Part shown: positions 38,707-64,000 of the stretch, piece by piece
How the letters are laid out: every line of letters begins with the position of its first letter
How positions within the stretch are numbered: position 1 is the stretch's first letter
NCBI GenBank assembly: GCA_036971475.1
Contig: JBAIZL010000003.1
Span: forward strand, 54,204,342 to 54,268,341
DNA: 64,000 nucleotides
Source: Prosapia bicincta
Lineage: Eukaryota; Arthropoda; Insecta; Hemiptera; Cercopidae
Direction: 5' to 3'
Notes under the pieces: model-generated
What the model was told of the DNA's origin: nothing
Seen by the model: the letters and a program-made list of their open reading frames with translations, nothing else
Databases searched by the model: none
Made by a program: the position numbers and the translations under genes

Positions 38707-38785
<79 letters not shown>
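38707..38785. repeat. (TA)n(CA)n microsatellite
   Basis: TA run followed by about 40 bp of CA. Confidence 0.95.
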
Positions 38786-38788
<3 letters not shown>

Positions 38789-43274: not shown

Positions 43275-43276
<2 letters not shown>

Positions 43277-43308
<32 letters not shown>

Positions 43309-43460: not shown

Positions 43461-43464
43461 TTAA

Positions 43465-46690: not shown

Positions 46691-48501
46691 GCAGAGCGCT
46701 ACGTTTTCCCGAGGTTTCCTACCTAGCATGACATTTCAATAACTTTCCGTAATAACTAAATTATTATGTAATTATTAAAATTACACAAATATTTATATCA
46801 CTGTACCCAATAAAAAAACGTAAAAAAATAAGGCATACACCACATTTACATTACCATGGTTTACTGAAGACAATTGAGTCATATTGTGTTAGACTAAAAG
46901 CAAAATTATGAAGCATAAAATCATTTGGAGTTTTAGTAAGTTTAATCAAATTAATTACCAATGTTTTAGTTATAACAAAATACATCCCAGACACCCAGAC
47001 GGTATATGACGGCAATCACAAATAAACGATTAGGGTAAGTCAGGTTAGGCCTAAAAACTAATAGGTATACTTGATGTCGACATTTACTCGCCCGAAGGTC
47101 CGCATATCTACTTTATGTAGGCCTAAGCTTTGGTTAAACGGTACGTTTCCAAGGTTTCTACCTTCTTGTTGGAAATGTACATATTGTACATATTATTATA
47201 TATAAAATAGCATGGCAATATTAAATTAATACTACTAAATAAGTGCCACAGTAAATTACTTTAGAATTAGTTGATGTGTATCTTTTTACCATTGGCCAAA
47301 GTATTTGAATCGGTTCTCTTTATCTAGTTCACTTTATTATATTTACAAATGGTAATTGGGAGGGGGTTTATTGATATCCGTTTAGTAGTTAGTATTTTTC
47401 TTGCTAATGTCAGTTTTAAAGCTTTTTGCTTCTGACAGCTCTTATACTTCTTTAGGTGTGAGAATAGAGAAACCTAATTACAGATAGAAATCGTAATTTC
47501 CTTAATACGCACCATCCTGAATCTTAATCACTTTGGTTTCGCAGATTCTCTTGTCACTCACTTGAAGGGCGAATATAAAAGAGTAAATTCAAAAGTAAAA
47601 GGTTAAATAGGTTGGATATTTATTCTCTATATAGTGCAAGTTTAAAACTGGTAATTTTGTTTATTTTTTAGTCCTAAAATACATGATTTCAGAGATAATA
47701 TTCTGTCCTCCACTCTATGGTTCTTCCATTGCTTTATGTTTTATATTCAAACACTCTACTTTTCGATTTAATACTATCTGAAATTCAGAGGATGTACAAT
47801 GGATTTTCTGCATGATAGGATTTATTCTTTTAAAAATACCTCATATCGGTTATATTTAATATATACATTTTAGTTGGAGCTCCCGATTGATTTGAGAGAA
47901 CCTAAAGCCTATGCATCCATGCAAACGTGGGACCATCCAGGGGCGGAGCGGTTGTTAGTCAGCATTTATAATGCAGATGACCATCAGTCATTGCGGTTAT
48001 ATATTGGATGATGCCGGGTAGAACCAGTATCACTTGAATATGAGAAGCTCCCGAGGGATTTGAGGGGAACGTAAGCCCTATGCCTCACTCCAATGGATGA
48101 GATTCTCCGTTAGAACCAGGTCTGTAGTGGTTTATTTTTGAATATTAAGACGTACATTGGGAATGCGCTACGTTCTTTAAACGTTTTCGACCCTATCAAA
48201 ATTCAATAATAACTAAATATGTAAATATAAAAGGACAAAAATATTTATATTACAGTAGTTAATTAAATCGTAACACAATTAAACAAACACTGTATTTACA
48301 TTACCATGGTTTCCAAAGGACATTTTGAATAATTTTTTCTTAGTTTGAAAGAGAAAATATGAAGCTTAAAAACTTTTGGAGACTTTGTATGTTTTAATCA
48401 ATTTATTTAAACTGATTTTGCTTATATCACTATATATTCGTGCCCTCTAGATGGTATATCTCTTCAATTACGAATAAACCACTGTTAGAGTCGAATTAGA
48501 C

Positions 48502-48504
<3 letters not shown>

Positions 48505-48574
<70 letters not shown>

Positions 48575-48575
48575 A
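48505..48575. repeat. (TA)n(TG)n microsatellite
   Basis: Counterpart of 13,239-13,378 with a longer TA and shorter TG part. Confidence 0.95.
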
Positions 48576-49558
48576 TGACGTCGACATTTAACCGGGCTGA
48601 AAATAGCCTAATTGGAAGCTATTGTACTTGAACAGTTTTTTGTTGTAGGTAAATATAGAAAAAACCTTTCCTTTGGTTAAATGTTACATTTAGACGTTTC
48701 CAACTTATTACCAAAAAGGTACATATTGTTCTATCAGATAAAATAACTTATTACATAAATATCTAATAAAACTATATAAATGTCCCATCAGTGTACTCTA
48801 GAATTAGTTTATTTATTGGTCGTGTATTTATTTCTATTAGCTAAAGTATATGAATCTATTCATTATATTTGATTTACAAATGGCGACGTATATTAGGCCT
48901 ATGTATATTAATTGTTAATGTTAAAGCACTGTTAGTGGAACCCATTATTCTCTCCCCCCTTTTCTCTCTCTCTCATATATATAGGCTAATTCCTCTCTCT
49001 CATACACATTGGCCAGTGGTTACCAACAAATTGTTTTCAAGGACCCACTGGGGGCATCGGTCACTATATTGACAAGGACCCCCCAAATTCAATAAATGCT
49101 TAAATAGGCTGCTTATTCACTATATAATACTAGTTTAAAACTGGTGAATGTTGGAGAAAGAATTGTTATTATTTTTGTTATTAATCGTTATTATTTTTTA
49201 GTTCTAAAATACATAATTTAAGAGAAAGTACTCTGCTCCTCATTATATGGTTCCTCCATTGCTTTATGTCTTAAATACAAGCAATATACTTTTGGATTTA
49301 AAAGCTGTCAGAAATTCGGAGGATTTAAAATGGATCTTCTGTATGATAAGAGTTGTTCTTTTAAAATTACCTCATATCAGTTATATTTAATTTTTACAGT
49401 TATTTCAATATAATTTCGTTTGATATCTTGATCCTTCGTAATACCTAGTTAAAAAAATTAATAATTTGTGTCTATGTGAGCGATAAGAATGGCGCAACCG
49501 ATATTGTATAACTAGTAAAACTCTAGCTTTAATAAAAGAATGTCTTGTCTTGTTCCAG

Positions 49559-49600
49559 TCACGTGCTGCTTTGGTGCAAAGAAGAGGAAGGAAAGGGGAG
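49559..49600 (+). CDS. Small exon of unidentified gene (copy B)
   Basis: 42 bp between TTGTTCCAG and GGGGAG/GTAATT, phase 1 in and out. Encodes TCCFGAKKRKERG. It links exon 38,043 to exon 50,680 in one frame. Confidence 0.6.
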
Positions 49601-50679
49601 GTAATTACTTTTAGGTTGTTTTAACTTTACCTGGAAATAAAGTAATTTAGTAGATTTATTAAAATCCACTAATATAATTAAAATAGTTTTACAGCTTGTT
49701 CCTTAACGCGTATATTTGTTCAGTTTCCAATATTTGCTGGGTTTAAGCTAAATATTGGGATCCTCATCCCATGTTTTGAATGTAATTGTAATGTTCTTTT
49801 GAATATATTCAAATATTATAGCATCATATTACGGCTGCCAGATTAAGAATTTTCATTTTGTGGTTCATGTAAGTCTCCGCCTTTAATTCTACTACTATAG
49901 TATTATATTTCTAGGAGAAAATACATGAAGTTTAATGAAACTATAGACAAAGTATTAAAGTTACTGTATAAATAATATGTTAATTAAAATATTAGATTTA
50001 AACCATTAGCACCCTCGTGTAACTAAAATAATTTTATTTTTATTAATCACTTAAACTACAGTTTATAACCATCCGAAGTTTAAATTTAGTAAATGTGTTA
50101 AATCTTACTGAGACAGAACGTTTTCGATCGCTATGTGCCGATCTTCATCCGTGTCTTCTGCTTGGAGAGGTCGGGTCATGCGGTGGCGGTTTCAAAGGTA
50201 GATTTTCGATAGTATCAAAGAGTGTGTGTGATTTGAATTGTGTTTATTCGTTTAATATGTTTGTTTTTTGTGTTTTTGTGTGTCTGTTCGGGTAGTCCAG
50301 ATAGTCGTAAACTATTGTTGAAGTGATTAATAAGATTCACCAAACGTAATGGATTACAAAATTCAATTTATTTTTATATTATTAAATTTATTTTAGGAGT
50401 CAAATACCAGCTTATAAAATTCGACCTGTATTTTTTTCTGTATATAATTCTACGCTTTACGAACATGATTTTAAGAAACTATGAAAAATAGAAACATTAG
50501 CTATGATGTAGAATAAAATTATTTTTTTAAAATTCATCAACATAGGAGCTAATAATTATGTATATCACAATATGCATGTCTGCAGGCTTTTATTTTACCT
50601 GACAGTTTATTATCGTATTTATATTGTTTATAAATATCGTATTATTTGACAAGATTTATTCAAATTTCTACCTTTACAG

Positions 50680-50886
50680 TAGTTTTCGATGAGGACATGC
50701 TCAGCTATTTGTCAAGCGCATACCCGAGAATAAAGTTTGTTCCTATTCTCGAGGTGATTCCTGAAGACAATGAAGAAGAGAAAGCGGAAATAGTTTATAA
50801 AAAAGCTGCAATATTTTCTACAAGTGAGTCCGCACTATTTCCGCTAAAGATTGAAGTCCCTGCGTTCTACAGGACTCAGTCGTTTT
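50680..50886 (+). CDS. Main exon of unidentified gene (copy B)
   Basis: 207 bp between CCTTTACAG and TCGTTTT/GTAAGT. Phases and length match 15,362-15,568, and the peptide is nearly the same, with changes such as D to N in the acidic patch and D to E in the FSTSESALF segment. With exons 38,043 and 49,559 it gives one continuous frame. No downstream phase-1 exon is visible before the minus-strand genes begin, so copy B may be cut short. Confidence 0.7.
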
Positions 50887-52179
50887 GTAAGTTACTTTTA
50901 TTTGTTCCTTACATTAGGAAAAATTATTGTAAAATATTTGAACTGTGAGATATTGTAGCAAACTGTCGCTGTCTATCAAAGGGCAGTCCGTTGTAGAACC
51001 TTCGGCAAAAAAGGGCTACTGCACGTACCTGGTATACCATAAATAATAATATGCTTCGAAAGACTTAATAGTAAGGAAAGTGCACTCTATCGCTGGAGAG
51101 GAGAGTTACATTCGTCATCGAGAGACTCTGCGATTTATGGAGAAAACTCTCTACAAATGCATAAAAAGCACGTCCAACTAACACCTGCAGCTTGGGAAAT
51201 TTTCAGAATTTCCCACCGAAGCCAAAGATAAAGTGAAGCAGGATTCGTTCTGATAAGACAAAAGAAAAACTAGCGGCATAAGGTAGCCAATAAAATTTGA
51301 AGAGGATGTAACCTACATGGAAACTATCCAAAGGAAACACGAGTTAGTCAAACTCCAGTACTCGAGCGGGGGGGGGGCGTCTGGGTATTTTTGGAACAAG
51401 TTCTAAATTAAAATGAAAAGAAGTAAACTCGCTAAATAAAAGTAGTAAGGGGTATTAGTGAGAGGAAATAAATTTTACGTACTGTATAGAAGCAATTCGA
51501 GAATAGGAGAATGAAGTAAAATAAGAGAAATATTAGTAAGTGGCTGGGCGATCAAGTGAAGTGAAACAAGAAACCATGCTGGAGATAACTCGTTAACAAC
51601 TAAAACTATTAATTTATCTTAAATTCAAAACCAACTCTTTAAAGTAAAAATAATTAAGTTTTATAAACTTTTTATTAATTTCTTTAAGTAATAATGAATT
51701 TCAAATATAAACTTTATCAAGCCAAGTGCAGTAACCTATACAAGAATTAAGATAATTAAGTGCAATTTTATAAGATTTTATTAGTAGAAAGAATAATTAT
51801 AGGAGTTTTGATGCATATCGACAAATTAGAGCTGGACAACTACCTGTAAATTTTAAGACTTTGAACTCAAACTTGAAGTTAATCTGTCATATTAAAAAAC
51901 AATTAGCTGTATATTAATTTGATTCCCTTAGAGACAAAATATCCTGTAGTAGCCTACATCCTAAGTACACTTCATTACTCATTTAAGCATTTCTATACAG
52001 CTTCCAATAGACATTGCATAGGAAAGGTTAATGTAAATAATTTTATTTTTATTTACAGACCTAAATATTCATTTATCTATTTACTTACCAGTAGTAATGG
52101 GTATACTTTATCCCCCCAATGAGAGAGCAGTATTTCTTACCCCCACTCCTTCCTAAGCCCCGCCCCTTTTGTTTGATAG

Positions 52180-52357
52180 GTCGATGGTGATGAAGATGGC
52201 GTCGACGCCCCGCCCCTGGTGCTGGTGGAGGAGCGGAAGGGCCATCTTGTTCTGGTGATGACGTGAGTTTGGAAAAAATATAATTCTTGGTTGGGGAATG
52301 GAACCTAGGACTTTTGGTTTGCTGGCGTGTGACGCTAGCGACTGAGCTACGAGTCGT
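52180..52357 (-). mobile_element. tRNA-derived SINE head and body (possible exon on the other strand)
   Basis: On the minus strand, GTAGCTCAGTCGCTAGCG (box A type, near 52,350) and GGTTCCATTCC (box B type, near 52,303) are spaced as in a tRNA gene, but the stems do not all pair. This fits a SINE head or a tRNA pseudogene. The following GC-rich body covers 52,180-52,262. On the plus strand that same block has an acceptor (GTTTGATAG), a donor (GATGAC/GTGAGT) and one open frame (VDGDEDGVDAPPLVLVEERK), phase 0 in and 2 out. The phase does not fit exon 50,680. I favour the SINE. Confidence 0.45.
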
Positions 52358-52509
52358 TCAGTTGTGTGTAACTGTACGATTGTGGTACAAGTAGGTCTTG
52401 GTTGGAAATTTCGGTTAAATAAGAGTAATACGTGTATTTTAATAAATATGAATTTATTGTCTCAAAAAATAAAAATATATTGACAAGGACAAATGCGTAA
52501 TTTAAATAC

Positions 52510-52700
52510 AATATATATATATATAAATCTAACAATTATTTTAAAAAATAATAATATTAAGACTAGAATAAATACGAATAATAAAAATATATGAGCAAGA
52601 ACAAATACAATATATATAAATCTAACAATAATTTTAAAAAATAATAATATTATAAATCTAACAATAATTTTAAAAAATAATAATATTAAGACTAGAATCA
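52510..52700. repeat. Short tandem AT-rich repeat
   Basis: Three to four copies of TCTAACAATAATTTTAAAAA followed by ATAATAATATTA, about 40-90 bp apart. Hydrophobic frames across it are artefacts. Confidence 0.7.
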
Positions 52701-52832: not shown

Positions 52833-53215
52833 TAGGTTAGCGAATATTGGGTTCGCGTGACTTTAAAATTCGGTGCAATATTTGTAGGTGACATCACAGC
52901 AACATCACAGTTATGCGATATCGAAGTCGAACTACACCATCAATTACTCCTCATCAGAATTGAACTACAATATAGGTCAATTCTAGTAACGAGTCTTTGA
53001 TGGTGTGGGTCGATTGCGATAGTGCATAAATATGATGTTGCTGTGGGTGTCAGAGTACAAATATTACACACCCGATTTTAAAGTCACGCAAAACCAGCAT
53101 TCGCATGTATCCTTGGCTGTGGGTAAAATATTTTCTAAGGAAGACAGCTCCAGCCATCGCTGTCCTCAGTGGTGGCCATTCCATTACAACATGCCACCCC
53201 CAAGCAAACACACAC
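52833..53215. repeat. Foldback unit 1
   Basis: Arms 52,833-52,908 and 53,032-53,110 are inverted copies (shared TTTTAAAGTCACGC and GATGTTGCTGTG). The loop contains AACTACAATATAGGTCAATT. The right arm is followed by GCTCCAGCCATCGCTGTCCT and a CCATTACAACATGCCACCCC block. Confidence 0.7.
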
Positions 53216-53235
53216 ACACACACACACAGACGCAC

Positions 53236-53563
53236 ACAGTAAGTAGGTTAGCGAATGCAGGGACCGCGTGGTAATATAGGGGAAATAAAATAATTACGAT
53301 TGGGATCTCAGCAACATCAGCAATTACTCACTATCAGAATTGAACTACAATATAGGTCAATTCTAGTAGTGAATCTTTGATGACGTTGCTGTGGGTTCCA
53401 AATCGTAATTATTTTTATTTCCGATATTACCACGCAAGACCGGCATTCGCATGTATCCTGAGCTTACCGGGTGCGTAAGCTGCCTTAAGGGCTACGGAAG
53501 GCAGCTCCATCCATCGCTGCCTTCTGTGGTGGTCATCCATTACAACATACCACCCCCATGCAC
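53236..53563. repeat. Foldback unit 2
   Basis: Arms 53,240-53,315 and 53,388-53,463 are inverted copies of each other, with the same loop core and the same trailing blocks as unit 1. So the two are tandem duplicates separated by a CA run (53,211-53,228). Confidence 0.7.
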
Positions 53564-53742: not shown

Positions 53743-54734
53743 TTATTCCTCTAGACTCCGCATTTCTTCGTCAGTAGTTGACAATAAAGTTGTGACGTCA
53801 ATTCCGTCCAGATCCTCGAGCGTGACTGGCAGCGGCTCAGGAGGTATCTCAGACGTCATTTGTCTCCGTATGTCGGATATAATATAGTCCACAATATCCA
53901 GGCTCTGAGCAATCTCCTCATCTGCGGTGGACGGTGGTGGCTTGGATGCTGGTGGTTGGGGAGGCAGAGATGTTGATGGTGGTGTCACCTCATCTGGCGC
54001 TGCGGTGGACGGTGGCTTGGATGCTGGTGGTTGGGATGCTGAAGGCAGAGATGTCGATGTCCAGGTATGCGCTGGTGGTGGTTGCTGGCCGTCGTACGGG
54101 CGGGACGTCCTCAGATATCTATCCCATGACTGGCTGATTATAATTCGACCGTCGTTTGTGCATGGGAGATAGGATACTCCCGACGAAATATTTAGTGTCA
54201 CCAACGGGTACCCCGCCGCCGTAGCCTCTGATCTCAGTCTCAGCATCTGACTGAAATACCGACAACACAATTTAGTAATATGAAAACACGGAATACTATA
54301 AAATCTGAAAGACTAATTCACAGTATAATTTTAAAAATTAAGTCAATTTAATGAATAAATACAATGTTTATGAAAATATATGTCCAAAATAGGTAATACA
54401 AAACAAAATCTAGTGTAAAATGAAATGCTGAAAAAGAACAGCTACCTTATACTATTTTATTAAAAATCGATATATGTTTAGCACATAATATATCCAACTG
54501 TTTGAGCTCGCTTAAAGTTAATAAAACACGACAGTATAATTATTTGTGAAATTTGTAAAAAGCAATATGAAATGAAGGTTATTCAAAATTAAACACACAT
54601 ATATAAAGTATTTTTAAATAAATATTCGTTGTCACTTACCTAAATAAGTCATCAGCCAAGCCCGGCAATATAGACCTGATCAGCTCCCTCAGCATGTCGT
54701 CGGTATAACGAGTGAGGTTGAATCCAGGCACCAT
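53743..54734 (-). CDS. Two-exon gene for a proline-rich protein
   Basis: Exon 1 is 54,734-54,640 and exon 2 is 54,250-53,743. The donor is TTATTTAG/GTAAGTG and the acceptor GGTATTTCAG/TC. The 389-bp intron is AT-rich and exon phases agree (95 + 508 = 603 nt), giving 200 residues. The N-terminal part is helical and leucine-rich (MLRELIRSILPGLADD). The middle (about residues 85-140) is a P/S/T/A linker with repeated PPASKPP, and the tail is acidic (LEDLDGIDV, EEMRSLEE). I do not recognise it. A TATATAT element sits about 65 bp upstream of the ATG. The acceptor ATG at 54,734 was chosen because an in-frame stop lies upstream. It is not certain whether it belongs to the host or to the viral element. 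Confidence 0.6.
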
Positions 54735-54959: not shown

Positions 54960-55583
54960 CTATGAAAGATAAACACGTATAGTGGCGGATGTGGGCGTTC
55001 TGCACACGCTACATACTTCAAGGCTAAGCGAGCACAATCGACAGGCAAACACATGTCCACATGGTAGACTTGCAACTTGCAATTCTTCTGCACAACAAAT
55101 CTTACATTTCAAACGATCATCCTCATTACGTTGCACTAGATCACCGTCGTCGTCGTCATCGTCGTCATCATCATCATCGTCATCATCGTCATCAAAAACA
55201 GTTCTAATATCGATATTCATTTCTTCTACTTTAAATTTTACAATCCATGCTAATTTACATTCATGAAACCATTCAACGTGTTCGACAAACGGGTCATCTG
55301 TAGGTTCCCAACCTTTGAGACCTCCCCCACAACTAAAACATACAGTATGGTCATCTTCTCCGGTGTAGAAAAAACCGGTCAAGCTTAGAGTATATGGATT
55401 CAATGTTTCGCTTTCCACACCCTTCCAATTACGAAAAGAGGATAATCTGCTGTTCGCAAGTGAATAACGTCGATGAACTGGGTTCTCAATTGTAAGAGAA
55501 TCGGGCCAAACCATGTCTGTCTGTGGAATGACTGAAAATCTTAAATGTCTTGTATTCTTATACACTTGTTCTCTGTGTCTCAT
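54960..55583 (-). CDS. iap: Inhibitor-of-apoptosis protein (BIR + RING)
   Basis: 207 residues. One BIR repeat spans about residues 38-112 with the zinc ligands in order C-x2-C, H, C (CFSC, then H in VEHVEW, then HEC) and the conserved GW. A run of about 16 aspartates (encoded by a GAT/GAC triplet repeat at 55,144-55,196) separates it from a C-terminal C3HC4 RING (CKIC, PCGHVFAC, CSVC). BIR domains bind caspases or IAP antagonists and the RING is a ubiquitin ligase. Baculoviruses, other insect DNA viruses and some adintoviruses carry such genes from their hosts. It lies on the same strand as the viral module, with no introns, which fits a viral cargo gene. A host retrocopy is the alternative. 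An internal ATG at 55,514 is possible. Confidence 0.85.
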   Translation of the reverse strand: MRHREQVYKNTRHLRFSVIPQTDMVWPDSLTIENPVHRRYSLANSRLSSFRNWKGVESETLNPYTLSLTGFFYTGEDDHTVCFSCGGGLKGWEPTDDPFVEHVEWFHECKLAWIVKFKVEEMNIDIRTVFDDDDDDDDDDDDDDDDGDLVQRNEDDRLKCKICCAEELQVASLPCGHVFACRLCSLSLEVCSVCRTPTSATIRVYLS

Positions 55584-56086
55584 ACGGGGTTGAAACCGTC
55601 ATCATTATGCCCACATTACAAGTTTGGAAATAGCCGACGCTATTTACCAGTGACTACCACAAAATGCAGTCCCTACGGGCAATCGACTTTCAAGTAGGGT
55701 GTTAACCCCGACATTCAAGGTCGATTACCCGAATGAAAATGGCTCCAACCACCGCCATTTCCTGTAACTGCCACTCCATGACAAAATGCAGTTCCCAAAC
55801 AGCCAAGAAGGTTTAGGAGGACTTGTCCTACGCCAGGGACCTTCAAAGGCAAAGCTTTTTTTTGGTGCTTTAAAGGTTTACAGGGAGTTACCCCGTGCCA
55901 GGGACCTTTAAAACATTTTTCTTGAAGGTTTACGGGGAGTTAACCCACGCCAGTGACCATCAAGTTTTTTTTAAAAATTTTTTTGAAGCTTTAAAGGTTT
56001 ACAGGGAGTTACCCCGTGCCAGGGACCTTTAAAACATTTTTCTTGAAGGTTTACGGGGAGTTAACCCACGCCAGTGACCATCAAGT
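55584..56086. repeat. Intergenic hairpin cluster
   Basis: A GGGYAATCGAC inverted-repeat hairpin (55,676-55,731) is followed by five related hairpins: 55,807-55,844, 55,869-55,912, 55,921-55,964, 55,990-56,033 and 56,042-56,085. The last four form two tandem 121-bp units. Each has a stem such as TTTAAAGGT/ACCTTTAAA or CTTGAAGGT/ACCATCAAG around a GGGAGTTA-CCC core ending GCCAGGGACC. No ORF. Confidence 0.8.
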
Positions 56087-56087
56087 T

Positions 56088-56436
56088 TTATACTAAGCGA
56101 TAAGCAAAATCTTGCACTGCGCAGTGCACATTTACAATGTACATAAGTGTTTGGTTGCGGTAGTATGCACCTGAAGTAAATACGGCTGTTGTTGCTAGAC
56201 GAGTATTTCTCAGGCAATTCCATGACATGTGGAAATATTGAGCCTTTTCCAAACCTTTTGTGAAAATGGTGGAAAACGGTATGATTCGCAATAGTTGCTC
56301 ATCAAAAGGTATACTACCTTCGTACCAGCTGATACGAGCCTGCCTGTAACCATCGAGCAGACGTTTGTGACGATTCATTTAAATTATGAAATTTGTAAGG
56401 CGGTTTAAAAATGGTAACACTTTGATAGTGTTCGGA
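56088..56436 (-). pseudogene. Broken tandem copy of the exonuclease-like gene
   Basis: Closely matches 56,752-57,138 (the intact gene) but has small deletions that shift frame after the KGLEKAQY motif, and a lost segment near RRISWYEGS. The 5' end is cut off exactly at a CGGGCAATCGAC hairpin (56,437-56,467). The 3' end runs into the hairpin cluster. A third piece with only the 3' end lies at about 56,540-56,612. Confidence 0.8.
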
Positions 56437-56662
56437 CGGGCAATCGACATTCAAGGTCGATTACCCGAAATGGCTCCAACCACAGTCATTGCCTGTAACT
56501 GCCTAACATGACAAAATGAAGTTCCCAATGGAAACAGCCAGTTTTAAACTCTAATATCTTGCACTGCGCAGTGCACATTTACAATCTACATAACATAAAT
56601 GTTGTGTTGCGACGGGCAATCGACTTTCAAGTAGGGTGTTTACCCCGAAGGTCGATTACCCG
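56437..56662. repeat. Duplicated hairpin plus trailing block
   Basis: Hairpins with CGGGCAATCGAC/GTCGATTACCCG arms at 56,437-56,467 and 56,613-56,662 are each followed by AATGGCTCCAACCAC and a CATGACAAAATG block, as at 55,676-55,800. Between them is a 3' fragment of the exonuclease-like gene containing the 16-bp palindrome TGCACTGCGCAGTGCA. Confidence 0.8.
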
Positions 56663-56751
56663 AATGAAAATGGCTCCAACCACCGCCATTTCCTGTAACT
56701 GCCACTCCATGACAAAATGCAGTTCCCAATGCAAACAGCCGGTTTTAAACT

Positions 56752-57210
56752 CTAAGCGATAAGCAAATCATAATAATATCTTGCACTGCGTAGTGCACAT
56801 TTACAGTCTGCATAAGTGTTGTGTTGCGGTAGTATGCATTTGAAGTAAATAGGGCTGTTGTTGTTGTTGCTAGACGAGTATTTCTCAGGCAATTCCATCA
56901 CATGTGGATGGAACTGCCGCAAATATTGAGCCTTTTCCAAACCTTTTGTGAAAATGGTGGAAAACGGTGTTAGCATGATTCGCAATAGTTGTTCATCAAA
57001 AGGTATACTACCTTCGTACCAGCTGATACGATGATATTTTGCCTGTAACCATCTAGCAGATTTTTGTGACGAATCATTTAAATTATGAAATTTGTAAGGC
57101 GGTTTGAAAATGGTAACACTTTGATAGTGTTCGGACACCACAGCCAGTTCCTTCACAACGTATTTGCCATCGTTGTCGACGAAGGCATGAAACTCCACTA
57201 CTGCTTGCAT
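56752..57210 (-). CDS. Small exonuclease-like (RNase H fold?) protein
   Basis: 152 residues. The layout resembles a family I remember from insect genomes next to mobile elements. It starts VVEFHAFVDNDGKYVVKELA, has FKPPYKF at about residue 35, a RISWYEGSIPFD segment near 62-75, KGLEKAQYL near 88-97, and ends with a CKCAL motif. The order (acidic strand, KPP, GxxEK, terminal His/Cys-Ala-Leu) recalls DnaQ-type exonucleases but I cannot confirm catalytic residues. It is on the same strand as the capsid genes, 183 bp downstream of the PC4-like gene, and has been tandemly duplicated (56,088-56,436). Confidence 0.65.
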   Translation of the reverse strand: MQAVVEFHAFVDNDGKYVVKELAVVSEHYQSVTIFKPPYKFHNLNDSSQKSARWLQAKYHRISWYEGSIPFDEQLLRIMLTPFSTIFTKGLEKAQYLRQFHPHVMELPEKYSSSNNNNSPIYFKCILPQHNTYADCKCALRSARYYYDLLIA

Positions 57211-57393
57211 GTTTGTCTGCCAACAAAAGTTTACACAAAAATTAATATTAATAAAAAATTAATACTAAATAAATTCGTAAGATATGAAGTAATTTAAAGA
57301 GCCGCTATGGTATGAAGTAACATACGAACGTGTACCTAGCAAGAAATATATAAATCGTAGAAAGTAACGTATATATATTATTAGGCATGAAAC

Positions 57394-57918
57394 TCAACCA
57401 CTGCTTGCATGCTTCTTGTACAAAACGACTTCCTCGTACAACTTGTCTGCCTCGGGGAGAGTACTGGACACGATCTCGTCCGTGGCTAGACACTCAATGA
57501 TGTAAGACCCTAGTTGTGGTTCATTATAAAACAGTTCGCTGATGCGCCGGTTTACGAGCGGTATGGTATCCATTAATAAATTCCATTCTGGTAGGCCCAA
57601 GGTGACCCTGTGTTTTCCGTCAAACAATGCGATATAACGTTTACCGAAGACAGTCTTTATTGTGATATCGCCGTTAGTTAGTGTAAACTTACGTTGTTCT
57701 CCTTCAGGCAGCGGTAGTCGTGTCTTGAAATCATTAAAGTCGTTGTACGTGAAAAAAACAAATTTTCTACCAGCCTGTATAAGGACGCCTAGTTCGTAGA
57801 CGGTGTGCTGAAAAAGCCCGGTCGCGACAAACTTCGTACACTGGTCATTCAGAAAATACACAGACTTTAGAAATATGCCCAACGGACGAGCGGTACGGTC
57901 TACATCCATCGCGTCCAT
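57394..57918 (-). CDS. PC4-like putative ssDNA-binding protein
   Basis: 174 residues from the ATG at 57,918 (MDAMDVDRTARP). The open frame extends to 57,963, but that N-terminal piece is short and hydrophobic, and the second start has a good context. Residues about 60-135 contain a beta-rich stretch (FFTYNDFNDFKTRLPLPEG, ITIKTVFGKRYIALF) followed by VTLGLPEWNLLMDTIPLVN. This is the order of the PC4/p15 fold: strands, then a W-containing helix. PC4 relatives in viruses bind single-stranded DNA or affect transcription. The C-terminus is acidic then basic (YKKH). It lies 61 bp after the major capsid gene. The family assignment is by pattern only. Confidence 0.6.
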   Translation of the reverse strand: MDAMDVDRTARPLGIFLKSVYFLNDQCTKFVATGLFQHTVYELGVLIQAGRKFVFFTYNDFNDFKTRLPLPEGEQRKFTLTNGDITIKTVFGKRYIALFDGKHRVTLGLPEWNLLMDTIPLVNRRISELFYNEPQLGSYIIECLATDEIVSSTLPEADKLYEEVVLYKKHASSG

Positions 57919-57979
57919 GACGACAACTGAGACTAAATGCGAACAAATAGGGTAATATATCACAGGGTGTGGTCACAGA

Positions 57980-59173
57980 TTACGTAATCTTTTTAACAAC
58001 ACCTGTTAGCAGGTTATAGACAATATGCGAATCGTGAATAATCAAGCAGTAACCGGAAGTATTAGGCGGAATATTTTCAGACGCCTCGATTTCAAGTCTC
58101 ACATCTACAGGCCCTGATTTTATCGTATCGTTTTGTTTCGAACAATCGATTACAAAAATCGGTGCTTTTTGCTTAAAGGTTGACAAGTCTAGACATGGTG
58201 ATGGTTCGCGTGAATAATAGGACTGCTGAAATCTAACGTACATGTCATACAAAATGGCGGTGTCGCCGAGAATATTATCGTAGGGAAAGTACTGAGAGTT
58301 GAGATACAATTTTACATCCGTTACCTTGCAGCTATCAAACTCTGAAGCATTTGCTTTAATCTTGTTTTTGCGATCGATTTGCAACGCGAAAATTACGTAA
58401 CGAGGTTTTTCCAGTTGCGAAGATATCTTTACGGTCCAAGAGAGTTGTTTCGTGGCCGGTAAACCGGGATATTCTATTAGTTCCCATTTCCGGTGTGGTA
58501 CGTGAACGGTGACATCGCGTTCAATCATTTTCAAAAGTTTCAATTTTATCGGATCGGCTACGGAGACGTGCGGAACTCGCCAATAGATAGTATTTATTTT
58601 CAGATCAATATTTGTCGCATCCGTGCTAACTATTGCGTTTAAATTTGAAGATGAACGCAAAAGGACAAGCTCCTGTTTCACGTTGACTACAATTCTATTG
58701 TAATCCTCGAAAAATCCCATCAACATACGCAACGGTATAACTATGTTGAACTCTTTACAATCGTTATTTGTTTTACCCACTCCTAGCCAACCGCAATTTC
58801 CGAGTTTATTTTTCTCGTGTTCGCGCAACGAAAGCAAGTTCTTAATGGTGGTCGTTATACCGACATTCCTGGTCCTGTCTATTTCGTTGCCTCCGATTTC
58901 GTATCTGATATCGTCGAAAAGAAAAGCTATAGCATTATTTATCAAAGACACGTCAGCGGCCGCTCCTCCGTCTTTTGTCGCAGTCAACGTACCTTTTATA
59001 TGCAGCGTGCTCTGAAAAGGTATCGTAATGACATCTTGTTGATGAATGGGAATACGAATTTCATCGTTATTACCAAACGTAGCGGAGGAGTACGGTCGAT
59101 GAGTATGGTACTCCAGTCCGTTGAGGGTGTTGTCGTACTCGGCGCTAGAGTCGATTGCCAAAAGGTTTTCCAT
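57980..59173 (-). CDS. Putative double-jelly-roll major capsid protein
   Basis: 397 residues, the size of compact double-jelly-roll capsid proteins such as PRD1 P3 (about 395). No cysteine-rich or enzymatic motif; predicted almost all beta. The first half has TIPFQSTLHIKGTLTATKDG and FLFDDIRYEIGGNEIDRTRN, and the second half VPHVSVADPIKLKLLKMIER, WELIEYPGLPATKQLSWTVK and FALQIDRKNKI. I remember proteins with these segments from insect and hydrozoan genomes beside adenain-type proteases. Its position directly after the penton-like gene is that of the hexon in Polintons. It overlaps the small upstream ORF by 29 bases. It would form the hexagonal capsid lattice. Confidence 0.75.
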   Translation of the reverse strand: MENLLAIDSSAEYDNTLNGLEYHTHRPYSSATFGNNDEIRIPIHQQDVITIPFQSTLHIKGTLTATKDGGAAADVSLINNAIAFLFDDIRYEIGGNEIDRTRNVGITTTIKNLLSLREHEKNKLGNCGWLGVGKTNNDCKEFNIVIPLRMLMGFFEDYNRIVVNVKQELVLLRSSSNLNAIVSTDATNIDLKINTIYWRVPHVSVADPIKLKLLKMIERDVTVHVPHRKWELIEYPGLPATKQLSWTVKISSQLEKPRYVIFALQIDRKNKIKANASEFDSCKVTDVKLYLNSQYFPYDNILGDTAILYDMYVRFQQSYYSREPSPCLDLSTFKQKAPIFVIDCSKQNDTIKSGPVDVRLEIEASENIPPNTSGYCLIIHDSHIVYNLLTGVVKKIT

Positions 59174-59336
59174 TGTTCACTTTAAAACCCAAAGATCTGA
59201 GGAACCTAACGTTTCGCAGTGTTAACTGTGCCGTCGTCGGACGTAAACTGCCGCCCTTCTTATAGAAGCGCTCGTTAAATATTAGTCCCATCTCGACGTC
59301 TACGTAAATGTAATCGTACGGAAATGTTTTCTCCAC
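59145..59336 (-). CDS. Small conserved-looking ORF between penton and capsid genes
   Basis: 63 residues that overlap the end of the penton gene (62 bases) and the start of the capsid gene (29 bases). It is in a packed same-strand cluster where the gap would otherwise be empty. The peptide has a tyrosine-rich start (PYDYIYVDVEMGLIF) and a basic end (RNVRFLRSLGFKV). I have an impression of similar short peptides in related elements, but cannot confirm it. It could also be a read-through shadow. An internal ATG at about 59,291 is an alternative start. Confidence 0.45.
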   Translation of the reverse strand: MEKTFPYDYIYVDVEMGLIFNERFYKKGGSLRPTTAQLTLRNVRFLRSLGFKVNNGKPFGNRL

Positions 59337-59976
59337 GGAAATCTATTATATCACCGTTCTGATCTCGTAGACTTACAGTGATATTATGAATGACGCTTAC
59401 GTTGACAGGTAAATATATTACGCTCTGAGGGACTTCTACAATTTTATAACCGGGCGGTACCTGCGGATAAAATTCGTGCAAGGTATGGCATTCTATGCCG
59501 TTTTGAAACGATCCTGCGACTATATTGCAATCCACGCGTATCACGTTAACCCTGATGATATCTACAGGCCGGTCAGAAGAGTGTTTATGATTTGCCTCTA
59601 ATTTCTTCTTACTGAACCCCATCAGCTGGCCTATAGACATGGCCTTGTCGAAAAAGATTGCGTGCGAACATTTTATTTCCACTTTGAGTGTGTTATTATT
59701 CGGTGTCAATACTAAAACAGTATCGGGAACTAGTTTCGTTTTAATGTACCTCTCAATATCGGATATTTCGTACGATCCGGTCGGTAATGAAATCGTGTGA
59801 ACGTTTTTATCATCGCCGTAATGAAAAAGATTGTTTACATCCTCAACGATATTTGGTATCGAGTTGTATGTTGCCAGATCGATGAAAGCTATTTCCCACT
59901 CGCCTTTTGATACATCAATTGGTGGGAAAAAGTCACAAGACAAAACAGCAGTGTGATCTGATAGAACTATGCTCAT
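59275..59976 (-). CDS. Penton-like single-jelly-roll minor capsid protein
   Basis: 233 residues from the ATG at 59,976. That start is preferred because it overlaps the protease stop as ATGA; an upstream ATG at 60,009 would add 11 residues. The N-terminal strand (SDHTAVLSCDFFPPIDVSKG) and the EWEIAFIDLATYNSIPNI segment, then HTLHEFYPQVPPGYKI and the C-terminal DRGENISVRLHLRR-like strand, are the hallmarks of Polinton and adintovirus penton-like proteins. It should form the five-fold vertices with the double-jelly-roll lattice. Confidence 0.8.
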   Translation of the reverse strand: MSIVLSDHTAVLSCDFFPPIDVSKGEWEIAFIDLATYNSIPNIVEDVNNLFHYGDDKNVHTISLPTGSYEISDIERYIKTKLVPDTVLVLTPNNNTLKVEIKCSHAIFFDKAMSIGQLMGFSKKKLEANHKHSSDRPVDIIRVNVIRVDCNIVAGSFQNGIECHTLHEFYPQVPPGYKIVEVPQSVIYLPVNVSVIHNITVSLRDQNGDIIDFRGENISVRLHLRRRRDGTNI

Positions 59977-60353
59977 GACGTTAGAAACTTTAGACACAAA
60001 TGACCGCAAACGACTGAGTTGTCTTTTTGATGTCTCTTGTAGTTATAGTGTACGTTAGCGTTTTCGCCAAAATACCTACTTAGCTCAATTGGCGGTCGCA
60101 GATTCCCGAAACTATCATAGTACTCTATAGAGTTTCCTCTCTTTTTGTAACATACCCAATGGGTGCCGGGACCGGTTATACTATCCAAATTCACGATAGC
60201 CGATTCGTTTCTTAAAGGTCGTGCAGGTAATGTATCTCTCATGTATACACCTCTGAACCACGGTACTCCCAATGCTAAAGCGTATCTTTCCAGTTCTATA
60301 TTAGTCAACGGTCTAATGGGTATACAATCTATCGACGTTTTTTTTTCGTACAT
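59973..60353 (-). CDS. Adenain-like (Ulp1-fold) cysteine protease
   Basis: 126 residues. Contains the catalytic triad in the adenovirus protease order: His in GTHWVCY, Asp in YYDSFGNLRPP, and Cys in VVCGHLCLKF near the C-terminus. This family cleaves capsid precursor proteins in virion maturation in adenoviruses and Polintons. The length is shorter than adenain (about 200) but normal for the compact Polinton relatives. The ORF overlaps the end of the phospholipase gene by 25 bases at its start and ends TGA within the ATGA that starts the penton gene. Confidence 0.9.
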   Translation of the reverse strand: MYEKKTSIDCIPIRPLTNIELERYALALGVPWFRGVYMRDTLPARPLRNESAIVNLDSITGPGTHWVCYKKRGNSIEYYDSFGNLRPPIELSRYFGENANVHYNYKRHQKDNSVVCGHLCLKFLTS

Positions 60354-60856
60354 CTTTTCTTCTTCTTCCCGCTACCTTGTTTCTTGTACGGTTTCAAGTA
60401 AAGCCCTTTGCCTTGCAGACGTTTCAACAGGTGTTGAACGGTAGGCTTTCGACGACGACGTCTTTTACCGCCGCCAAATGCTGTCTTAGCTTTCATCGCT
60501 GCCGTTACGGCCAAAGCAGCGGCGCGTTCACCGAGGGATGCGTCACCCGCTTTGACTCTGCTCCAAGCTTTTCCCGCTAAGATTTCGTCGGCTACGCGTC
60601 TTCTATCTGAATCACTGTAGTTGCTGTATGAGATATCGTGTTGTTTACAGGCTTCGTCCAACGGATTTATACCTTTATCACCGCGTGCCAACCGTGTCTT
60701 CAATTTTGTTCCCGGTCCACAATAATTGTACGAAGGTAAGTGTAACTCGACTGGAAGTAAATCGATGGCCTTATTCAAAACACCAGACACTAGTCCACGT
60801 CCTGTCTTTACGACACCGCGTTTACGACTAACAGCTGTTTTCCGTTTGACACCCAT
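60329..60856 (-). CDS. Phospholipase A2-like protein with basic tail
   Basis: 175 residues. Residues about 40-75 carry the parvovirus VP1-unique/PLA2 signature: YNYCGPGTKL (calcium loop), then LDEACKQHDISYSNY, with the catalytic His-Asp pair in the HD motif. In parvoviruses this activity lets the particle leave the endosome. Related domains occur in Polintons and adintoviruses. Before it is a basic N-terminus (KRKTAVSRKRG). After it come an alanine-rich helix (ERAAALAVTAAMKA), GGGKRRRRRKP and a lysine/arginine-rich end, which suggests DNA binding or core packing. It is next to the protease, which could cleave at the basic linker. Confidence 0.85.
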   Translation of the reverse strand: MGVKRKTAVSRKRGVVKTGRGLVSGVLNKAIDLLPVELHLPSYNYCGPGTKLKTRLARGDKGINPLDEACKQHDISYSNYSDSDRRRVADEILAGKAWSRVKAGDASLGERAAALAVTAAMKAKTAFGGGKRRRRRKPTVQHLLKRLQGKGLYLKPYKKQGSGKKKKRCTKKKRR

Positions 60857-61025
60857 TTTATTAATGATTCATAACAGTCAATGTTACGCCTACTTATAAA
60901 ATATGTCTTTCAAGATTGCATATAACTCTCGGAGTCTAGTCGTCTTCATGCATCGTATTTTCAAAACATCGAAAATTATTTTTAAAGTGTTCCCGTATTT
61001 ATTATCGCCTATTGACCTTGTCGAT
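60857..61025 (-). promoter_or_regulatory. Intergenic gap before the phospholipase gene
   Basis: 169 bp between the fibre stop and the phospholipase start, the longest gap in the capsid module. It is AT-rich with CTTATAAAATATG-type sequence, so it may hold a promoter for the downstream genes. No specific element is proven. Confidence 0.3.
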
Positions 61026-62087
61026 CTATTTTTCATTCGACATCTCTCGCATTAGCGTGTCTCGTAGGCTTTGAATAGCCGTATTCAATTGCCTTTGCGA
61101 AACAGCATCGTTATCAGCTATACCATCGGCTATCCCCGATAAGCGCTTAGAGTTTAACCAGTAGTAGTCGCCCGTCTCCTCGGAATGCAGAGTGTATTTC
61201 TTTATCCAAGATTTAATTTCATGAAGCTGACGAACGTTAACAGCGTCGACATCGGTGAAACCGTCTCGAACATTAGTTATACATTTTCCGTTTGCGTTAT
61301 ACATTTCACCGATCGGCAGTAGGGTGAGAAACAGCGTATTTTTCATTAGAAAACCCAGTGTGACCGCATCTTGTTGGTACAAAGGTTCTTCGACCTGAGC
61401 GAGCCGCTTATTTTGAAAACTCCAAACAGTTTTGTCTTTTCGAGGCACCCTATCGTCCACGTATAATTTTGTAGCGGCGTCATTTTTATACAAAGGCGCT
61501 TTAACATTACATATGGCCACTCCGTGAGCGTCAAATTTACCCTCTGCGTTTTTCGATAAGAAATTATCTCTGACGTACTTCATGTTAATAGCGTCAGAGT
61601 CTTTCATAGGCGCCGATACACCGCACACCCTTTGGTCGCCAAAGGAAAAACAATCGGCTAGTTTAATAGGAACCAACGATTCCAAGTAGGCTCTCGTTAC
61701 GGCATCATCTTTTTCTTTCGGCTCTCCGAGACCTCCCAAAGGCAAGCCTTTTGTATGATATCTATTCTTTATTCGAGTCAAACAGTTTTGTTCGAGATAC
61801 GTTTTGGACACTGCATCGCCGTCCTCAACGGGTTGGCCTAGACCGCCTACAGAAAAGCCTTTAGTGTAGTATTTTTTCCTATCCTCGTCGAAACCTAAAC
61901 ATTTTTTCGCTATCGTACCCGCATTGACGGCATCGCTGTCCTCAATAGGATCACCAACATTGCGCAATAACTTACCTATCGCGTCATAATGATTACCATC
62001 GGGAGTCAGACCTATCCCGTGCTGATGATGATGGGGATGCGGAGCGTTAATCTGGTCCGAAAAACGACCAAACTTATCGACGCTCAT
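61026..62087 (-). CDS. Fibre-like protein of eight repeats
   Basis: 353 residues. About eight repeats of roughly 38-40 residues, each with a pattern G-x-x-I/V-x-x-V/P-x-x-x-D-x-D-A-V, then a short helix such as KTYLEQN. Examples are DPIEDSDAVN, QPVEDGDAVS, EPKEKDDAVT, APMKDSDAIN, EPLYQQDAVT and NDAVSQRQL. Between them are glycine and aromatic strands (YHTKGLPLGGLGEP). This is the repeat style of trimeric beta-fibre shafts in phage and adenovirus-like fibres, with a histidine-rich N-terminus (PHPHHHQHGIG). It starts in an ATGA overlap with the stop of the gene upstream. Its likely role is host attachment; no receptor can be named. Confidence 0.7.
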   Translation of the reverse strand: MSVDKFGRFSDQINAPHPHHHQHGIGLTPDGNHYDAIGKLLRNVGDPIEDSDAVNAGTIAKKCLGFDEDRKKYYTKGFSVGGLGQPVEDGDAVSKTYLEQNCLTRIKNRYHTKGLPLGGLGEPKEKDDAVTRAYLESLVPIKLADCFSFGDQRVCGVSAPMKDSDAINMKYVRDNFLSKNAEGKFDAHGVAICNVKAPLYKNDAATKLYVDDRVPRKDKTVWSFQNKRLAQVEEPLYQQDAVTLGFLMKNTLFLTLLPIGEMYNANGKCITNVRDGFTDVDAVNVRQLHEIKSWIKKYTLHSEETGDYYWLNSKRLSGIADGIADNDAVSQRQLNTAIQSLRDTLMREMSNEK

Positions 62088-63043
62088 CTTATTAATGTCC
62101 TAATTTTTCTATTTCCACTGCCTTTTATAAAACCCGCTTCCCTCAGCTCTTCTATAATGGAGGCAATTTCGTTCTCATGACCTGTATGACCTACCTCTTG
62201 AGATGACAAAAGGAGTCGTAACCTATCACAGAGTTCGTTAGGGTTGTCCCAATAGGCATAACCTTTACCGCTATGCAAACCGGTCGGCGGAAATAATCTC
62301 GATATAATTGCCTTGTACTTGGCGGATTTACTAGCACGGTTTATGGCTAATAGATGATTATAACCTTTCCTATGAGCACTGGTTTGTTCACAGATTTGTT
62401 TATAGGTGTTCAGGTCGGCCTTTGTGTATAATGTTTCATCGGGTTTGCGCATAAATATCAATTCATAGAGCCCTTCGGTTCCCTTGTAAGTGTCCGCGTC
62501 GATGATGATGTCACCGTTTTCGTCGTCAAACCTTATATACTTATCGCCTATCATAACAGTACCGTCTCCTGTTATTCGAGGACCGTATGTGTTATCAATT
62601 GTATTCCTATTGTCTTTAATCATTCTCAACACGTAGGTCCGCGGTAGACGATGTTTGAACATTGTATGGACATAACGAACACTATCTTCCTGGCCCGCCG
62701 GTGTTGATAGTAGCTCTTTAACAACACTACTTTGGCGCATCGGTGTAACTGAAGGTCCAGGCTCATCTGTTGATTCAGCTATTACTTCGGTATCGATGAA
62801 TTTCGGAACATGGGTTTGTGAAGCATCATCCTCCATGTCTACATCCATTTCTTCTTCTTTTTTAATTTCCATTTTCGGCTGTGGACGACGAATTTTCGAA
62901 ATTTCCTTAATGATAGGGCTATATTGTTTAGTTAAAATCCGTTCAGCATCTGCATCGCCGAACTTTATCTGCAGATACTTTCTCTTGATGTTCTCCCTCA
63001 AACGGGCGATCTCAGAGATAACTTGCTCCTCCTTTGGTGTCAT
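62084..63043 (-). CDS. Conserved protein with DUF8207-like C-terminal domain
   Basis: 319 residues. An N-terminal coiled-coil-like region (EVISEIARLRENIKRKYLQI), an acidic linker (EEEMDVDMEDD), a middle domain (about 110-190) and a C-terminal part with YWDNPNELCDRLRLLLSSQE and GHENEIASIIEELREAGFI. From memory this end is a domain shared by adintovirus-related loci in insects and cnidarians (I believe DUF8207). The function is unknown. Its TGA shares the ATGA with the fibre start, so the two are likely translated from one transcript or arose by compaction. Confidence 0.65.
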   Translation of the reverse strand: MTPKEEQVISEIARLRENIKRKYLQIKFGDADAERILTKQYSPIIKEISKIRRPQPKMEIKKEEEMDVDMEDDASQTHVPKFIDTEVIAESTDEPGPSVTPMRQSSVVKELLSTPAGQEDSVRYVHTMFKHRLPRTYVLRMIKDNRNTIDNTYGPRITGDGTVMIGDKYIRFDDENGDIIIDADTYKGTEGLYELIFMRKPDETLYTKADLNTYKQICEQTSAHRKGYNHLLAINRASKSAKYKAIISRLFPPTGLHSGKGYAYWDNPNELCDRLRLLLSSQEVGHTGHENEIASIIEELREAGFIKGSGNRKIRTLIR

Positions 63044-63081
63044 ATTGCGAAATGAACAGTAATTCGACTATCAAATAGCTT

Positions 63082-64000
63082 TTAAGACAGTTCCAAAGAT
63101 CGAAAAAACACAGCATAACGCTTTTCACGCAATAGGTACTGTACAACCTGTGATGCGGACGCTTTCATCAATTTCGAATTGTTCCAAGATAAACCTCGGC
63201 AGTATCTGTACATGTTGTTGTCAAAATATGGTATACTTTCCACCTTCTCGGCGCTTCTAAAGACGAAGGTACGTTTTATATTTTCACGCCGTTGCGGTAT
63301 TTCGGCTACTATTAGATTATCATCTCTAGGCATATCTTGCATGTGCCGTTTTAGCGTCGGTATAGAATTTTCGAGAAGATAACTATTCAAAAGCAGAAAC
63401 TCATCAGTATTTGCCCCCGTGTATGTGCACCACATTTGAAGTTGCCTACGATCGACAACAGTATATTTTGATCCGTCAAAAGACAAGCCGAAATGATGAC
63501 ACTGATTAGGCACCGTCGGAAGGGCGGCCTTTAGAAATTCGGTTGTAAACACACCTTGTGCCTTATTATTTACAGGCTCGTAAAATTTACCTCTACTGCG
63601 TAAAGGTAGCGACAAAGGTCTAGGACCGTATTTCACATTGTAGCTAATGTCTACACAACACTTTACACTGCTGATAAGCTTGTACGCCTTTATAGGACCG
63701 ACTATGGGAATTGTCCTTTCCGTGATTACTACACAACGGGACGCGTACGGCAATGAACAGCTGTACTGTAACATGTCGAGGTATACTTGCGTGTACTCTA
63801 TGCCTCCGTGACTGGGAGTCAGTGTCCGATTGAAAAAATCAGGAAACGGCCGGAATCTGGATACCAAGTTTTGCGGATGCCGAACAGTTCCTTTCAACAT
63901 GTGTTCATTGTATAATATCAATTCAAATGGTACACCTCCTTTATCACATTCGTGCATGAACCTAATCCAAATGTCTCGATTATAAATTCTATTTGCGGAT
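63082..64000 (-). CDS. Unidentified protein, cut by the window end
   Basis: Open from the stop at 63,082 to the window edge. The first ATG inside is at 63,957, but the frame continues upstream without a stop (NRDIWIRFMHECDKGG), so the protein probably starts beyond 64,000. At least 305 residues are visible. No motif of DNA polymerase B, integrase or ATPase is seen. It contains several cysteines and aromatic residues (VKCCVDISYN, QMWCTYTG) and ends YAVFFRSLELS. It lies 38 bp upstream of the next gene on the same strand, so it belongs to the same module. Confidence 0.55.
   Translation of the reverse strand, partial: SANRIYNRDIWIRFMHECDKGGVPFELILYNEHMLKGTVRHPQNLVSRFRPFPDFFNRTLTPSHGGIEYTQVYLDMLQYSCSLPYASRCVVITERTIPIVGPIKAYKLISSVKCCVDISYNVKYGPRPLSLPLRSRGKFYEPVNNKAQGVFTTEFLKAALPTVPNQCHHFGLSFDGSKYTVVDRRQLQMWCTYTGANTDEFLLLNSYLLENSIPTLKRHMQDMPRDDNLIVAEIPQRRENIKRTFVFRSAEKVESIPYFDNNMYRYCRGLSWNNSKLMKASASQVVQYLLREKRYAVFFRSLELS

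Follow-up and report, generated by a model that had tools for sequence, protein, structure and literature searches.

The 64,000-nucleotide stretch of DNA analysed here, called the window below, very probably carries a single inserted copy of an endogenous virus, a Polinton/Maverick of the adintovirus (Eupolintoviridae) kind, that has undergone recent amplification in this genome. The genes in the window are the left half of one 21.6-kb element, which, as extension of the contig revealed, runs for 21,596 bp from window position 52,090 to 9,685 bases beyond the window end; an earlier note on this DNA had placed the start of the module at 54,960. This type of element is already known. Its copy number and cargo are unusual, and what is new here is the scale of the amplification, the cargo, and the presence of rearranged genomes.

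The left terminal inverted repeat (52,090-52,523, forward strand) begins AGTAGTAATGGG, and its partner lies in the continuation past the window (L009 9727-9248). Both repeats start with AGTAGT, and their alignment has 480 columns, with 429 identical, 46 gap columns, and 5 mismatches. A 6-bp target site duplication, CTTACC, flanks the element on the left at 52,084-52,089 and on the right, beyond the window, at L009 9728-9733, while elsewhere in the window a diverged second copy of the flank holds the empty target site, with a single CTTACC (16,729-16,734). In its long inverted repeats with AG-type termini and in its 6-bp target site duplication, the element thus matches a Polinton/Maverick. The same duplication length was found at all ten further end pairs fetched, directly in nine and allowing one extra AGT unit in the other, so that it is present in 11 of the 11 ordinary end pairs read when the window element is included. 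Among 40 terminal-repeat matches scored, there are 15 inward-facing pairs, one with a spacing of 20.2 kb and 14 with spacings of 21.56-21.69 kb.

From the window alone, the earlier note had proposed a Polinton/adintovirus-like virion module of co-directional genes with almost no gaps, among them an adenain-like protease, a candidate double jelly-roll (DJR) capsid protein, a parvovirus-type phospholipase, a fibre-like repeat protein, and an inhibitor of apoptosis (IAP). Minus-strand open reading frames (ORFs) are present at each of these places, and the proposal is borne out by the gene set together with the terminal repeats and the target duplication. The DJR capsid protein (57,980-59,173, minus strand, as are all genes described in the window) matches PF21738 at 1.2e-109 in Pfam; no solved structure was matched by its sequence, and of its 1,980 relatives, the 120 listed include four named ones, all leafhopper entries, which makes the earlier placement in an arthropod genome plausible. 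The neighboring 233-aa protein (59,275-59,976) is a candidate penton, or minor capsid, protein on the basis of gene order and family knowledge. It has 1,180 relatives, its structural model is mostly beta and fairly confident (mean pLDDT 86, pTM 0.60), and a profile search of solved structures gave no match. The 126-aa protease (59,973-60,353) can be placed in the adenain/Ulp1 group through a weak match to the African swine fever virus protein S273R (E 0.002), its best sequence match among solved structures; there is no Pfam match above the cut-off, and its catalytic residues, assigned by eye, presumably follow the adenain/Ulp1 pattern. Next to it lies a 175-aa protein with a basic tail (60,329-60,856) and a phospholipase A2 (PLA2)-like domain (PF08398, 5.2e-14), followed by a 353-aa fibre-like protein (61,026-62,087) whose stalk repeats are of the YadA-stalk and T7-fibre types (9.6e-14 and 3.2e-12 in Pfam). 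Two further genes complete this side of the window: a 319-aa protein with no assigned function (62,084-63,043), whose length is identical in 20 of 20 fetched copies, and the C-terminal part (63,082-64,000) of a protein that starts beyond the window and whose full length is 382 aa in 13 of 14 short copies. Searches of PHROGs and NCBIfam returned nothing useful apart from tail-fibre repeats in the fibre protein, and a TraK match was dropped as it fell far under the cut-off.

The replication, integration, and packaging genes lie past the window, where the earlier note had predicted a PolB, a retroviral-type integrase, a packaging ATPase, and long terminal inverted repeats. All of them were found, and their presence rules out a host gene island or a run of ordinary host genes past 64,000. 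The PolB (PF03175, 7.9e-47; open frame of 1,255 aa) is of the organellar/viral, protein-primed type by sequence, with priming itself a prediction. It has a long N-terminal region ahead of the Pfam match, the place of the OTU-like domain in adintovirus PolB; Cys/His motifs were seen there by eye, and the Pfam search matched no domain in it. The integrase has an rve domain (4.6e-13) and, as in Polintons/Mavericks, a chromodomain match, here at 4.7e-4 and 20.5 bits, under the Pfam cut-off of 25.1. In the window copy, the ATPase is split into two frames, each under the Pfam cut-off; in another copy (L023), it is recognized as an A32/FtsK-type packaging ATPase above the cut-off (Pox_A32, 1.4e-6), and of the 20 fetched copies, 14 extend far enough to include this frame, which is open in every one of them. 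The earlier suggestion of intact frames in a recent or active element fits the family of copies and, because of the split ATPase, fits the window copy less than fully.

The IAP-like protein (54,960-55,583; 207 aa) has one BIR (3.3e-19), a C-terminal RING (5.8e-9), and an Asp tract. Closer to the terminal repeat, a proline-rich ORF of 167 aa without a family match (53,743-54,246) may belong to a spliced gene as its second exon, which splice-like signals seen by eye would allow. The small ORFs at 56,088-56,378 and 56,752-57,210 are shortened versions of one ORF in a repeated block (55,717-57,210). A 174-aa protein (57,394-57,918) yields a low-confidence model (pLDDT 63) with two consecutive four-strand-plus-helix (beta4-alpha) units; a tandem PC4-like single-strand DNA binder is our guess from this model, with no Pfam or PDB match to give it sequence support. 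Finally, the gap between the PLA2 and fibre genes (60,857-61,025) is occupied in long copies by a gene for a 474-aa protein with a matrixin catalytic domain (M10, 4.3e-31) and hemopexin repeats (1.2e-4, one stretch), whose best match among solved structures is collagenase 3 (1.9e-17). At least 54 of the 105 copies have this matrix metalloproteinase (MMP) gene. Host-type MMP and BIR-RING genes are known from granuloviruses and baculoviruses, which are also insect DNA viruses. These belong, however, to an unrelated lineage, whereas here both genes are in an integrating DJR element. In the literature collection searched, no paper combined "matrix metalloproteinase" with "polinton" or "inhibitor of apoptosis" with "adintovirus".

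In the one assembly searched, at least 105 capsid gene copies were scored at 98-100% identity, 95 of them without a stop, and a further 126 matches to the capsid Pfam family score higher than the window copy. PolB was scored in at least 37 copies at 99-100%, of which 35 have no stop. These are single-gene counts among the matches listed, as distinct from the intactness of whole elements. MCP and IAP are at the expected place in 33 of the 37 scored PolB copies, and PolB, MCP, and IAP are all free of in-frame stops in 29. At least one virion-module frame is shortened in 8 of the 20 fetched copies, the protease in 6. Because near-identical copies are so many and most have unbroken capsid genes, multiplication was very probably recent. 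Changes found in two or more copies comprise 32 nonsynonymous and 54 synonymous ones, 0.22 of neutral (p 6e-12, a value that is too small since related copies share changes by descent), and single-copy changes comprise 95 and 65, respectively (0.54 of neutral). The list from which copies were chosen was sorted by capsid protein score, and this biases the sample towards intact, conserved capsid genes. Nevertheless, the PLA2, fibre, 319-aa, and A genes, whose own sequences played no part in the choice, have 25 nonsynonymous to 40 synonymous shared changes; those of the penton (3:4) and protease (3:3) show no significant departure from neutral. As shared differences are biased towards synonymous ones, spread probably needed working proteins. 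Modules also recombine between element lineages.

In two elements (C146:267,479,574-267,499,953 and C146:401,098,651-401,120,707), the IAP-side end is found on either side, and each of the two has a 6-bp target duplication of its own; they resemble integrated defective genomes. In adenoviruses, fold-back or symmetric defective genomes have one end duplicated in inverted orientation. A parvovirus counterpart is found in the snapback genomes of AAV (PMC8235507), and the same arrangement is seen here, with the difference that these elements are integrated with target duplications and that the arms of the best case are non-identical. A literature search on symmetric adenovirus genomes found nothing direct. 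Between the two arms of the first element, 21 of 1,857 aligned columns differ and there is one gap, which rules out a single molecule simply folded back on itself. This divergence also fits an origin within the chromosome, by ectopic gene conversion using the inverted terminal repeat of another element as homology. Because the terminal repeats at the two ends are inverted homologues of each other, a conversion event could leave the target duplication in place, and we give such an origin somewhat less than an even chance. Against it stand the occurrence of two separate loci, each with its own duplication, and the presence, in the center of the first, of 610 bases derived from the right side of the element, as template switching would give. 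A third possible case, with capsid genes in inverted arrangement, lies at C313:78.5M (its arms agree at 99.87% over 2,346 bases, with a loop of 3.2 kb and a junction overlap of about 12 bases). We left it out of the count, as it borders on N to the left and on an AT repeat to the right. Separately, an outward-facing pair of IAP genes was seen at C79:64.44M.

How the element as a whole has spread can be read in several ways. A strictly intracellular, self-synthesising transposon, replicating and integrating in germ-line nuclei with particles that never leave the cell, would agree with the finding of all counted copies within a single assembly and with the lack of an extracellular form in these sequence data. 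It would also agree with the outcome of pattern scans for the capsid protein and for alignment A1 in viral contigs, both of which confirmed no relative, although close ones could have been missed. We regard it as rather unlikely, given the constraint in shared changes of the capsid, PLA2, 319-aa, and A genes, and given that PLA2, fibre, and a secreted-type metalloproteinase would best fit leaving and entering cells. Open frames and constraint could also mark a domesticated gene set of viral origin that serves the host, which is very improbable for elements with a complete mobility gene set and dispersed copies with differing target duplications. An assembly artefact or contamination by free virus, to which the run of N adjoining C313:78.5M might point, has a negligible chance in view of the chromosomal flanks, the empty site in a paralogous segment, and the duplications at every ordinary end pair read.

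A more far-reaching reading, which we think less likely than not, is that of a dsDNA virus of animals that still is, or until very recently was, infectious and has hundreds of near-identical germ-line proviruses. Its co-replicating genomes would exchange cargo (IAP, secreted metalloproteinase), and template switching in protein-primed replication would produce the defective genomes with one end duplicated that integrate with their own target duplications. For the main explanation, a recently amplified element of the adintovirus kind, we read directly the gene set, terminal repeats, duplications, empty site, near-identical copies, and pattern of differences, and we infer the steps of the life cycle. 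Starting at the AGTAGT ends, the protein-primed PolB would copy linear DNA, the ATPase would pack it into DJR/penton capsids, and the protease would mature them. Fibre and PLA2 would then bring the DNA into new nuclei, where the integrase would join it to chromosomes with a 6-bp stagger. Meanwhile, the IAP may prevent the death of the producing cell, and the metalloproteinase, in copies that have it, may open tissue; together, these two suggest a tissue-spreading, apoptosis-blocking life style. The window copy, with its split ATPase frame, would be packageable only with ATPase supplied by others.

Vertebrate Maverick/Polinton elements have (AGT)2//(ACT)2 ends, 6-bp duplications, core genes under purifying selection, sizes of 12.7-24.6 kb, and repeats of 46-1,447 bp (PMC8097293). 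The element described here shares with them the PolB, integrase, ATPase, and capsid genes, the type of end, and the duplication length, and its size and repeat length are inside these ranges. It departs from them, as that survey describes them, in its IAP and metalloproteinase cargo; in addition, at most 38 intact copies per genome are given there, compared with 95 of 105 capsid and 35 of 37 PolB copies without a stop here, two figures that count single genes among the matches listed. Adintoviruses, a family now named Eupolintoviridae, likewise have a PolB, an integrase with a chromodomain-like end, a DJR capsid, an adenain-type protease, and a packaging ATPase (PMC11071296; PMC12451622; PMC8363768); the candidate penton gene would be a further one in common. 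Contigs of Drosophila-associated adintoviruses, however, measure 13.3-14.6 kb (PMC8363768), against 21.6 kb and extra accessory genes here.

Polinton virions are described as never seen as yet (PMC8097293), and the present findings bear on the question of whether animal Polintons are still mobile as viruses. From the elements with two IAP-side ends and their own duplications, one could learn what kinds of DNA molecule serve as substrates of the integrase. This genome offers a practical place to test the movement of Polintons as viruses, given its at least 105 near-identical capsid genes, the 35 unbroken PolB genes among the 37 scored, the empty site, and the separate target duplications.

The virion genes at the end of the window belong to an element of 21,596 bp that shows the Polinton/Maverick hallmarks that were tested. 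The long terminal inverted repeats predicted by the earlier note were found at 52,090-52,523 of the window and at 9,727-9,248 of L009, the next ~10 kb of the contig. Both start with AGTAGTAATGGG, and their alignment of 480 columns contains 429 identities, 46 gap columns, and 5 mismatches. CTTACC is present in both flanks. A diverged flank duplicate lies within the window (15,682-16,735, matching 51,037-52,090 at 93%), and there the left flank continues straight into the right flank with a single CTTACC. As this is an empty site, the insertion of the element is younger than the duplication of the flanking DNA.

The empty site derives from a larger diverged duplication (2,377-16,735 and 35,001-52,090, ~35 kb apart, 87-95% identical in pieces), which contains an array of 125-bp units with 7 copies at 9,037-9,912 and 14 at 43,462-45,264. 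Beside the left terminal repeat, there are nested inverted repeats with two similar hairpin-like units (52,840-53,450), and a related 62-base stretch is found, inverted, near the right end. About ten units of TTAGG, the arthropod-type telomere repeat, are located inside the chromosome at 27,667-27,717.

Within the window, the minus strand is tightly packed with ORFs between 53,743 and 64,000, in keeping with the co-directional, nearly gapless genes described previously. Profile searches recognized the double jelly-roll capsid, PLA2, IAP, and fibre-type repeats, all of them identities that had been proposed, and the protease, formerly called adenain-like, has a weak match to African swine fever virus S273R. 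The gene next to that of the capsid is a candidate penton, with a mostly beta predicted structure (mean pLDDT 86). Relatives number 1,980 for the capsid protein and 1,180 for this neighbor, with 120 listed for each; the named entries among the listed capsid relatives are leafhopper. Contigs of the same sizes (for example, 11,270, 9,072, 7,448, and 6,844) recur in both lists, which suggests that the two genes are neighbors elsewhere too.

The polymerase, integrase, and ATPase expected past the window are all present in L009. This stretch holds the start of gene A, whose ORF continues past 64,000; a packaging ATPase; an integrase (rve 4.6e-13), whose chromodomain match is sub-threshold; and a PolB of 1,255 aa (7.9e-47). 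Beyond PolB, small right-end genes on the plus strand include those for a 115-aa protein (6,935-7,282), followed by a second relative in shortened form at 7,499, and for a stand-alone RING protein (8,939-9,181), opposite to the main gene block.

Across the 2.2-Gb assembly, where the window is C199:54,204,342-54,268,341, match totals are lower bounds and stop-free counts consider stops only, leaving frameshifts out. The capsid protein has at least 105 scored matches (1,791 first-look candidates) over 16 contigs, all at 98-100% identity and 95 without a stop. For PolB, there are at least 37 (1,961 candidates; 99-100% identical), of which 35 lack stops; MCP and IAP lie at the expected place beside 33 of the 37, and in 29 all three are free of in-frame stops. 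The Pfam capsid family yields at least 126 scored matches (1,421 candidates), which should be other lineages, since each scores >398 bits and the window capsid 366.8. Tied scores among them (31 rows at E 5.4e-120, 30 at E 4.6e-117) suggest sets of identical domains. Terminal repeats gave at least 40 scored matches of 576 candidates, making 15 inward-facing pairs, 14 spaced by 21.56-21.69 kb and one by 20.2 kb. A 6-bp duplication was present at all 10 further pairs of ends read, in one case after allowing an extra AGT. Growth of a triplet-repeat terminus by one unit would fit sliding-back in protein-primed replication, for which adenovirus offers a parallel. Separately, IAP copies in the same direction at C146:23,403,203 and 23,424,982 (+), 21.8 kb apart, are possibly from elements in tandem.

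The claim that the frames are intact stood in part: the ATPase is open (229 aa) in all 14 fetched stretches that reach it, but in the window copy it is split over two frames by a one-base gap that distinguishes it from the other 14. Twenty 7-kb stretches were sampled across the 44 highest-ranked capsid matches. In 12 of them, comprising 10 among the 14 short copies and 2 among the 6 long ones, every virion-module gene that falls within the stretch has about its normal length; the remaining 8 show one or more shortened frames. The protease is affected in 6, the fibre clearly in 3 (L025, L030, L039), and a single stretch is affected for each of capsid, penton, metalloproteinase, and gene A; part of these may be assembly errors. 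A protease frame cut to 89 aa, near the overlap with PLA2, is seen in five (L024 at 4,730, L025, L031, L039, L040); the cause could be decay, a mistake in the assembly, or a frameshift site.

The long copies, 6 of the 20 stretches, carry ~1.36 kb between fibre and PLA2 encoding a 474-aa protein, in which profiles recognize a matrixin domain at 4.3e-31 and a hemopexin repeat at 1.2e-4. This metalloproteinase gene has at least 91 genome matches (1,065 candidates; 97-100% identical), 83 of them without a stop. It sits where expected beside at least 54 of the 105 capsid genes, with 8 among the 40 copies nearest the window copy and 46 among the remaining 65. The closest copies have a near-identical IAP, but in others that keep 98% identity in the capsid, IAP identity falls to ~81% and its C-terminal part differs. 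Compared with short copies L023 and L036, long copies L025 and L026 show 3-4 base differences in capsid and penton (~2 kb) and 41-45 in fibre and the 319-aa gene (Fisher test against the window copy, 1e-9 for each), while long copies among themselves have similar counts in both parts. By this comparison, L025 and L026 are mosaics that switch near protease/PLA2.

Two rearranged elements were also found. At C146:267,479,574-267,499,953, the left terminal repeat stands on both sides, with two capsid and two IAP genes, inverted; the arms have 98.8% identity across 1,857 columns, the center holds the metalloproteinase gene and 610 bases from the element's right side, and the borders carry duplicated AATGAG. 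The second, C146:401,098,651-401,120,707, characterized from its ends and IAP positions, has outward-facing IAPs ~3 kb from both ends and duplicated TAGAGT. A third candidate (C313:78.5M), with ends not closed, was left out. We prefer to regard these elements as defective genomes produced by template switching and then integrated, a reading with about an even chance of being right. Gene conversion in the chromosome could have made them instead, which is plausible but falls somewhat short of probable. Such rearranged integrated forms appear to be new, as does the metalloproteinase cargo, for which no naming paper was found in such elements within the literature searched. The number of unbroken copies appears new as well, since a vertebrate Maverick survey gives a maximum of 38 intact elements per genome (PMC8097293), although counts are per gene here and per element there.

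Finally, changes were counted in seven genes of the window copy and 20 to 26 others. Those common to two or more copies comprise 32 nonsynonymous (N) and 54 synonymous (S) changes against a neutral expectation of 73% N, a ratio to neutral of 0.22 (p 6e-12, too small because the copies share ancestry); changes seen once are 95:65, a ratio of 0.54. Shared N:S is 1:7 in the capsid, a count biased by having chosen the copies among matches ranked on capsid score, 1:5 in PLA2, 10:10 in the fibre, 8:13 in the 319-aa gene, and 6:12 in gene A; penton (3:4) and protease (3:3) show no significant departure from neutral. In work on vertebrate Mavericks, comparable constraint is interpreted as spread via particles (PMC8097293), and the constraint observed here probably likewise reflects spread through particles.
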